A stretch of 64,000 bases of DNA from Leifsonia sp. AK011 (GTDB lineage: Bacteria > Actinomycetota > Actinomycetes > Actinomycetales > Microbacteriaceae). Where the stretch lies: assembly GCF_013410945.1 (NCBI RefSeq), contig NZ_JACCCH010000001.1:682001-746000 (forward strand), given 5' to 3'. The translations under genes were made by a program, and so were the position numbers. Each line of letters starts with the position of its first letter. Position 1 is the first letter of the stretch. The notes below the pieces were generated by a model. The model saw nothing but the letters and a program-made list of their open reading frames with translations. It made no database searches and was not told the DNA's origin. Below, in pieces: positions 28,758-43,367 of this stretch.

Positions 28758-28859
28758 GTCGTGTTGTGCGGTCCCTCGTGGGCATCGCGCTGGTTGCGCG
28801 TTGGGCGTCGCGCCTGGTGTGCGTCGGGCGTCGTGCCTGTCGCGCGTCCTGTATGCGCC

Positions 28860-28915
28860 GAGTGTTCCGATATGGCTGCTAAAACCCCGCAAATGGCAGC
28901 CAAATCGGAACACTC
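28860..28915. repeat. GAGTGTTCCGA palindromic element, copy 1
   Basis: 56 bp. Ends GAGTGTTCCGA and TCGGAACACTC; pairing continues inward as ATATGGCTGCTA with TGGCAGCCAAAT. It lies between convergent genes. Confidence 0.85.
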
Positions 28916-28927
28916 AGCGTGAGAGGG

Positions 28928-30132: not shown

Positions 30133-30141
30133 CCCGTCGCC

Positions 30142-30197
30142 GAGTGTTCCGAAATGGTCGCCAAAACATCACGAATAACGGCCAAATCGGAACACTC
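30142..30197. repeat. GAGTGTTCCGA palindromic element, copy 2
   Basis: 56 bp between the convergent MarR and DUF1206 genes, starting 9 nt after the MarR stop. Same outer arms as copy 1; inner arms AATGGTCGCC and ACGGCCAAAT pair. Confidence 0.85.
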
Positions 30198-30210
30198 GGT
30201 GACTCAAGCC

Positions 30211-34706: not shown

Positions 34707-34716
34707 CGCCTCCGCC

Positions 34717-34771
34717 GAGTGTTCCGAAAGTCCCGCAATAGGGCCAGCCAAAGCGGCACTATCGGAACACT
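34717..34771. repeat. GAGTGTTCCGA palindromic element, copy 3
   Basis: 55 bp. The outer arms are conserved; the inner sequence differs from the other copies but still pairs (AGTCCCGC with GCGGCACT). Located 10 nt after the ABC permease stop. Confidence 0.82.
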
Positions 34772-34845
34772 GGGCGGAGAAGCAACGCCGCAGGGGAGCC
34801 TGCGCCCGTTTCCAGCGCCCGCTAGATGCTGAGAGGCTCTATCCC

Positions 34846-42201: not shown

Positions 42202-42753
42202 ATGGAATTCTCCGACGTCGAGAACGACCTCGCCGAGATCCTCCTCACCGAAGAGGAGATCCACGCCAAGATCGAGGAGCTCGCCCGAGCCATCGAGGCC
42301 GACCACCAGGGCGAGAAGATCCTGCTCGTGGGTGTTCTGCGTGGTGCCGTCATGGTGATGGCGGACCTCGCGCGTGCCCTCAAAGTCGACATCGAGATGG
42401 ACTGGATGGCCGTCTCGTCGTACGGCGCCGGCACCCAGTCGAGCGGTGTCGTGCGCATCCTCAAGGACCTCGACTCCGACCTCACGGGTCGTCGGGTGCT
42501 CATCGTCGAGGACATCATCGACTCCGGTCTCACCCTCTCGTGGCTGCGCGCCAACCTCGAGAGCCGTGGTGCGAAGACCGTCGAGATCTGTGCCCTTCTC
42601 CGCAAGCCCGACGCGTTGAAGGTCGAGGTGGATGTCACGTACATCGGTTTCGACATTCCCAACAAGTTCGTCGTGGGCTACGGCCTCGACTACGCGGAGC
42701 AGTACCGCAACCTGCGCGGTGTAGCGGTGCTCGCGCCGCACGTCTACGAGTAG
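42202..42753 (+). CDS. hpt: Hypoxanthine phosphoribosyltransferase
   Basis: 183 residues. The PRPP-binding motif VLIVEDIIDSGLTLSW and the early LLVGVLRGAVMVMADLARAL loop identify a purine phosphoribosyltransferase; the C-terminus YGLDYAEQYRNLRGVAVLAP fits Hpt. It salvages hypoxanthine and guanine to IMP and GMP. Follows tilS by 9 nt. Confidence 0.95.
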   Translation: MEFSDVENDLAEILLTEEEIHAKIEELARAIEADHQGEKILLVGVLRGAVMVMADLARALKVDIEMDWMAVSSYGAGTQSSGVVRILKDLDSDLTGRRVLIVEDIIDSGLTLSWLRANLESRGAKTVEICALLRKPDALKVEVDVTYIGFDIPNKFVVGYGLDYAEQYRNLRGVAVLAPHVYE

Positions 42754-42787
42754 AGGTCCCTCGGCCGCTGCCGTGTCTCGGGGCTGC

Positions 42788-42863
42788 GGGGCGGGCCTGC
42801 GCCAGCAGGTCTCTGCCCGTAGACGCCCACCACGCCGGAGACCTGCTGGCGCAGGCCCGCCCC
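42788..42863. repeat. 76-bp conserved-loop hairpin A
   Basis: Perfect 26-bp stem (42788-42813 with 42838-42863) with a 24-nt loop. The 7 bp next to the loop (AGGTCTC/GAGACCT) and the loop are shared with hairpin B. It starts 35 nt after hpt, so it could also end the hpt transcript. Confidence 0.88.
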
Positions 42864-42887
42864 TCCGCACTTGCGCGGTCGTGGCTC

Positions 42888-42971
42888 GCACGAACGTTGC
42901 GGAGGAGGACGCGCCGCCCAGCGCCGCTCCGGAGCAACGACTGCCGCGTGTCATCCTCCGCAACGTCGTGC
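42888..42971. repeat. Long imperfect hairpin C
   Basis: Ends GCACGAACGTTGCGGAGGA and TCCTCCGCAACGTCGTGC pair over 18 bp with one bulged A, and pairing continues inward with small bulges (84 nt in all). Sequence unrelated to hairpins A and B. Confidence 0.75.
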
Positions 42972-42978
42972 GGTGGTG

Positions 42979-43017
42979 GGTTTCGATAACGCCGGGCTTC
43001 GCCGCGGCTACTCAACC
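42979..43017 (+). repeat. GGTTTCGATAAC...CTACTCAACC palindrome, single copy
   Basis: 39 bp, almost identical to the minus-strand unit at 10529-10569 apart from two missing bases in the internal hairpin. Confidence 0.82.
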
Positions 43018-43134
43018 AACGGACCGACCAACCAACGGACCAACCAGCGCCTACCCATCCTCTCCAAAGGCCTGGGACGGGATGCACCCCCTGCCGTGCC
43101 ACGGGCGGTACCTCCCTGCCGCGACATGTACGGA

Positions 43135-43210
43135 GGGTGGGCCCTGTCTTGAGAGGTCTCCGGTGTGGTGGGCGTCTACGGGCAGAGACCTCTCAAGACA
43201 GGGCCCACCC
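43135..43210. repeat. 76-bp conserved-loop hairpin B
   Basis: Perfect 26-bp stem (43135-43160 with 43185-43210) with a 24-nt loop. In inverted orientation to hairpin A: the loop differs from A at one base, the outer 19 bp differ at about ten positions, all compensated. Confidence 0.88.
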
Positions 43211-43228
43211 GGAGCCCCGCAACACCGA

Positions 43229-43277
43229 AGCGTCAAGCGCTGTGTTCTCCGCTTCGCTTGACGCTACGCGTCAAGCG
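43229..43277. repeat. Triple GCGTCAAGCG repeat upstream of ftsH
   Basis: AGCGTCAAGCG at 43229-43239, its inverse at 43255-43265, and the direct form again at 43268-43277, so alternative hairpins can form. Confidence 0.6.
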
Positions 43278-43308
43278 AACGTGCAGCCCGCGCACAGTAG
43301 TCGCCCGG

Positions 43309-43314
43309 TAGCCT
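43309..43314 (+). promoter_or_regulatory. Probable -10 TAGCCT of ftsH
   Basis: It predicts a start near 43321 and a leader of about 47 nt carrying the SD GGGGCGGA. Confidence 0.45.
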
Positions 43315-43367
43315 TGCTGGAAGTTTCTCAAGCAGGAAGGTGCCGCGCCTCGTGGGGGCGGAATGAC

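Follow-up and report, generated by a model that had tools for sequence, protein, structure and literature searches.

The hpt–ftsH intergenic region of Leifsonia sp. AK011 contains two hairpins, A and B, belonging to a family of palindromes with a fixed anatomy: one conserved loop and a 26-bp stem, whose letters turn over almost freely while the arms match. The window analyzed here (a stretch of 64,000 nucleotides) holds both hairpins, which are two of the eight copies found in the source genome. The reading favored here, with a probability of roughly 0.5, is that of a mobile palindrome of about 80 nt, similar to REP sequences and Rickettsia palindromic elements (RPEs), which would spread by insertion and whose arms would regain their match in place, in part through template switching.

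Hairpins A and B and the anatomy of the family

Coordinates are those of the window:
42202..42753, + strand: hpt (phosphoribosyltransferase), a host gene
42754..43367, + strand: hpt–ftsH intergenic region of 614 nt, with A, B and other repeats
42788..42863, + strand: hairpin A, 26-bp perfect stem and 24-nt C-rich loop TGCCCGTAGACGCCCACCACGCCG; member of the covariance-model family
42788–42813 and 42838–42863: arms of hairpin A, GGGGCGGGCCTGCGCCAGCAGGTCTC
42814..42837, + strand: conserved loop of hairpin A, kept in all copies
42894..42966, no strand assigned: palindrome of another family between A and B, arms TTGCGGAGGANGACRCG, about 10 copies in the genome
43135..43210, − strand: hairpin B, geometry as A and inverted relative to it
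43135–43160 and 43185–43210: arms of hairpin B, GGGTGGGCCCTGTCTTGAGAGGTCTC
43161..43184, − strand: conserved loop of hairpin B

The identical geometry, 26-bp perfect stems, 24-nt loops and compensated outer-stem differences described in the initial annotation proved exact on rechecking. All 26 stem pairs are Watson–Crick in A and likewise in B, the loops differ by a single base (CACGCCG in A, CACACCG in B), A and B share all 7 inner pairs, and 10 of the 19 outer ones differ, every one compensated on the other arm. This resemblance is not due to chance, since the loop with a paired stem recurs eight times in the genome and is present in 36 of the 400 genomes searched from the taxonomic family. 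Hairpin A starts 34 nt past the hpt stop codon, and B lies about 157 nt upstream of the ftsH start codon. In seven hairpin-free members of the genus in which hpt and ftsH were both recognized, the gap between the two genes is 103–140 nt, versus 614 nt in the window. Thus, to judge from this comparison, most of the region is inserted sequence, and A and B are insertions.

The TTGCGGAGGANGACRCG-arm repeats represent a second, stem-conserved family, with arms 50 nt apart start to start; many copies also occur in genomes G002, G003, G007, G009 and G015, and the repeat is present between hpt and ftsH in G002. A third palindromic repeat family in the window comprises imperfect palindromes at 34710–34779, 28856–28919 and 30136–30203, which share GCCGAGTGTTCCGA...TCGGAACACT and differ in their inner arms.

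A loop-pattern scan of the source genome returned seven hairpins, and a covariance model trained on ten copies recovered the eighth and matched further copies in four members of the genus (G002, G003, G004 and G020). Four matches of this model in G003 (L040, L042, L043 and L044, at 1501) belong to a different palindromic repeat, whose stem (GTGAGGTGCCCASTTCGGTGGGT) is conserved and whose loop varies. A second, loop-centered model with free stems was run on the taxonomic family to which Leifsonia, Herbiconiux and Salinibacterium belong: a search of 300 genomes gave 33 positives and then one of 400 gave 36 (in 17 of 85 genera), with 1 to 14 copies per positive genome; the E-values of these home-built models are rough. 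One distant match appeared outside the taxonomic family, in an order-level sample. A pattern scan of named records added Cryobacterium, Homoserinimonas, Planctomonas, Terrimesophilobacter and others to the three genera above, and the loop pattern alone has scattered matches in unrelated GC-rich genomes that may be chance. The initial annotation would have been overturned by a lack of further copies or by copies without perfect stems; further copies with paired stems exist. Its statement that it knew of no described element with this loop also held for Rfam and the open-access literature searched, which misses most subscription journals: in a scan of the window with Rfam 15, only three tRNAs exceeded the gathering threshold, and the hairpins match no known structured RNA there.

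Among 55 distinct well-formed copies, the pairing frequency drops between pairs 26 and 27 from 0.78 to 0.29, roughly what chance would give. In 51 of these copies, pair 20 (counted from the loop) is a G:C pair with its G in the same arm; the loop-adjacent pairs are partly conserved and the remaining stem letters close to free. The conserved loop reads YGCCCRWRGAYGCCCRCCRMACCS on the C-rich strand and measures 24–25 nt (38 nt in one genus, whose loop holds an additional small hairpin that covaries), and the foot consensus is weak (G-rich, ..TC). On the G-rich strand, enlarged loops (L261, L262 and L263, in G196, G245 and G071) include a mini-hairpin of 7 bp whose own loop is GAA, and the pairs of this mini-stem covary from genome to genome as well. 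Of the stem cells in the first 17 copies, 98.2% are paired; shuffling lowers this to 60%, and sliding the arms by 1–3 columns to 47% or less. A change in each arm was counted for 123 cells. The earlier proposal that pairing itself is kept or restored was borne out.

Genomic context and mobility

Compensated stem changes are commonly read as proof that an RNA is functional, and the strong covariation would suit a structured RNA (a 3′-UTR stabilizer, a terminator or an antisense RNA) with a stem under selection for folding. The position of many copies fits as well: with gene calls from a home-made codon-bias method, 35 of 75 copies lie no more than 100 nt downstream of a same-sense stop codon, versus 13% of random intergenic positions. 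Conversely, 20 of the 75 face a convergent stop, and the orientation of the element differs between genera at the same locus (DDAH–rocD, ribBA). A cis-regulatory RNA would call for constant orientation and position beside one class of genes; orientation relative to genes is mixed, which makes a cis-acting RNA less likely, and the host genes are diverse housekeeping genes with no common pathway. Several copies are intragenic, in frame and without breaking the reading frame, at the start of rocD (several genera), in mrpA (G310, G671) and in a membrane oxidoreductase gene (G229, G741). No T-run (U-run) follows the stem on either side in the copies aligned for anatomy, and an intrinsic terminator was rejected for this reason. 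In addition, only one G.U occurs among the 260 cells of the first set. A structured RNA is therefore considered unlikely. Of the explanations that the initial annotation had offered, the structured RNA is not favored, given the mixed orientation, the in-frame copies and the missing U-run.

The preferred mobile palindrome is consistent with how copies are distributed. At the gnd locus in Leifsonia, G127 has a second hairpin that is absent from G236, the insert being about 95 nt. In G097, non-orthologous sites hold about 10 copies whose arms are near-identical down to two shared mismatches; this appears to reflect recent spread. Where two copies lie within 1 kb of each other, their C-rich strands mostly point towards each other. 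With respect to the features of MITEs, insertion is seen at hpt–ftsH and gnd, the arms are not conserved, and no exact target-site duplication was found or could be resolved at these two sites.

Dispersed palindromes near gene ends and closely spaced inverted pairs are also what canonical REP sequences moved by a resident RAYT (Y1) transposase would produce. However, the RAYT domain PF01797 (Y1_Tnp) was detected in 3 of 300 genomes and in none of the 33 hairpin-positive ones, the stem is 26 bp as against the 5–13 bp of GTAG REPs (PMC3733652), and the stem sequences are not conserved, so that this explanation is most improbable. The initial annotation had called for a search for a linked REP-type transposase, and the 33 positives have none; the copy number and orientation that it also wished to see established are those given above.

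No other mobiliser was found. In G097, nearly identical HNH/DUF222 genes lie beside hairpins (L075, L076, L128, L130, L133) within arrays of a dispersed repeat, GGTCCCTGAGCTTGTCGAAGGGAC. These genes were rejected as the mobiliser, given that they sit inside arrays of another repeat and that outside G097 only distant homologues occur, a few kb away from single hairpins in G260 and G212. A phage or plasmid origin was dismissed for want of a viral, phage or convincing plasmid match. A protein-coding origin of the loop was likewise set aside, as its variation follows no codon-position pattern and two reading frames are used, and an apparent link to purine synthesis (hpt, guaA, guaB) fades once the other host genes are named.

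In-place re-matching of the arms

Orthologous copies, identified by their flanking genes and DNA, allow changes in the arms to be followed with divergence. Between G101 and G713, whose flanks are 92–97% identical, five well-registered loci show 9 one-arm and 0 both-arm changes (the pairs L102/L255 and L086/L256 are out of register and were left out of the count). At 87–91% flank identity, pairing is intact in G196/G071 (4 both-arm, 0 one-arm changes) and in G127/G051 at DDAH–rocD (9 both-arm, 1 one-arm), and G229/G741 differ by one both-arm change (C:G to G:C) and no one-arm change. At about 75%, 10–17 pairs have changed on both sides with pairing kept. At ribBA, the arms of G215 equal those of G101/G713 save for three compensated pairs, and the loop is inverted.

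Template switching between the arms of an inverted repeat is documented to homogenize the arms and to invert the spacer (PMC8604942), and a role in creating and maintaining perfect stems has been proposed for it (PMC8794818). Both products, the homogenized arms and the inverted loop, were found here at one site, as expected of an inverted repeat maintained by template switching. The series from one-arm to both-arm changes and the clean loop inversion, matching these documented products, make a mutational contribution to covariation likely; selection is also possible. Of the alternatives raised in the initial annotation, active restoration has gained the best support, from one-arm changes in close relatives, both-arm changes at greater distance and the ribBA inversion. 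Template switching as a main agent would rest on time series at a few loci and on that one inversion.

A different account is that each copy arrives with its own arms through serial independent insertions, with no restoration in place, and that shared sites are hot spots. Several genera share the same few sites, orientations differ, and arms at sites shared between genera are as unlike as those of random copies (identity 0.61 versus 0.60), with loops 0.81 identical. As the inter-genus arms are no more alike than random ones, old inheritance with saturation and repeated hot-spot insertion cannot be told apart at that distance. Within genera, both-arm changes in the same copy with alignable surroundings (G196/G245/G071, G229/G741, G000/G003, and G215/G101 at ribBA) are left unexplained by independent insertion, and the account is judged rather improbable as a whole.

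The mismatches that do occur are not symmetrical between the strands. Across 80 distinct copies, of which related ones are not fully independent, reading the mismatches on the G-rich strand gives 87 with a G (G.T 46, G.A 21, G.G 20) and 25 with a C (p = 3e-9); counted by copy, the bias is 46 versus 10. The order of these mismatches on the G-rich strand is approximately the order of mismatch stability in nucleic acid duplexes. It thus seems to be folding of the G-rich strand that matters. Split by context, the counts are 36:7 for copies in which the C-rich strand is sense to the neighboring gene, 10:6 for those with a sense G-rich strand and 11:7 away from gene ends; the bias is strongest in the first context and weak elsewhere, which leaves a transcription-linked mutation bias as a possible cause. 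A preference for wobble-type mismatches on one strand would again suit a structured RNA, but in the 35 copies that follow a same-sense stop the favored strand is antisense to the neighboring gene. Selection on a fold could also yield one-arm changes followed by two-arm changes and could explain the mismatch bias.

Under the preferred mobile-palindrome reading, a mutation would enter one arm first, and the match would later be restored in place, at least partly via arm-to-arm template switching, which would occasionally invert the loop as well. A putative protein would recognize the loop and the fixed length in a folded single strand, which would most likely be ssDNA of the G-rich strand. A more far-reaching version, put forward tentatively, is that the element is read as a folded single strand by its loop and helix length, the 26-bp arms being a sequence-free ruler rewritten by arm-to-arm copying, and that the mover is a new kind of enzyme.

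Relation to known palindromic elements

Near-perfect compensation in inserted palindromes of both orientations, some of them inside genes, indicates that covariation need not mean a functional RNA. The family offers dozens of natural replicates at different ages, and hence a test bed for the rate at which template switching rewrites bacterial inverted repeats. It represents a REP-like element with an unusual loop-centered anatomy and no known mobiliser.

Stem sequence is also largely free in the attC sites of integrons, which are recognized as a folded strand and whose conserved boxes lie in the stem. The present element resembles attC in the free stem and in the folded-strand recognition proposed for it, but its conserved part is the 24-nt loop, not stem boxes, and no array was seen. 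Among REP sequences, CGTC repeats have stems of 8–9 bp and loops of 4–5 nt and are without a known transposase (PMC3733652). Like the GTAG and CGTC repeats (including RPEs), the hairpins are small dispersed palindromes, mostly near gene ends and in inverted pairs, and they share with CGTC repeats and RPEs the in-frame intragenic copies and the lack of an identified transposase. Unlike GTAG repeats, they have no GTAG tag at the foot and a stem well beyond the range of that class; unlike CGTC repeats and RPEs, they combine the 26-bp stem with a loop of 24–25 nt and carry no CGTC tag. They depart from REPs and RPEs in general in that the loop is conserved and the stem sequence free, with no constant GTAG or CGTC tag seen and a low copy number (1–14). 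With template-switch quasipalindromes they share re-matched arms and a loop inverted with the arms intact (PMC8604942, PMC8794818), whereas the known template-switch inverted repeats are single loci and the present element is a repeat family with a conserved loop and a fixed stem length.
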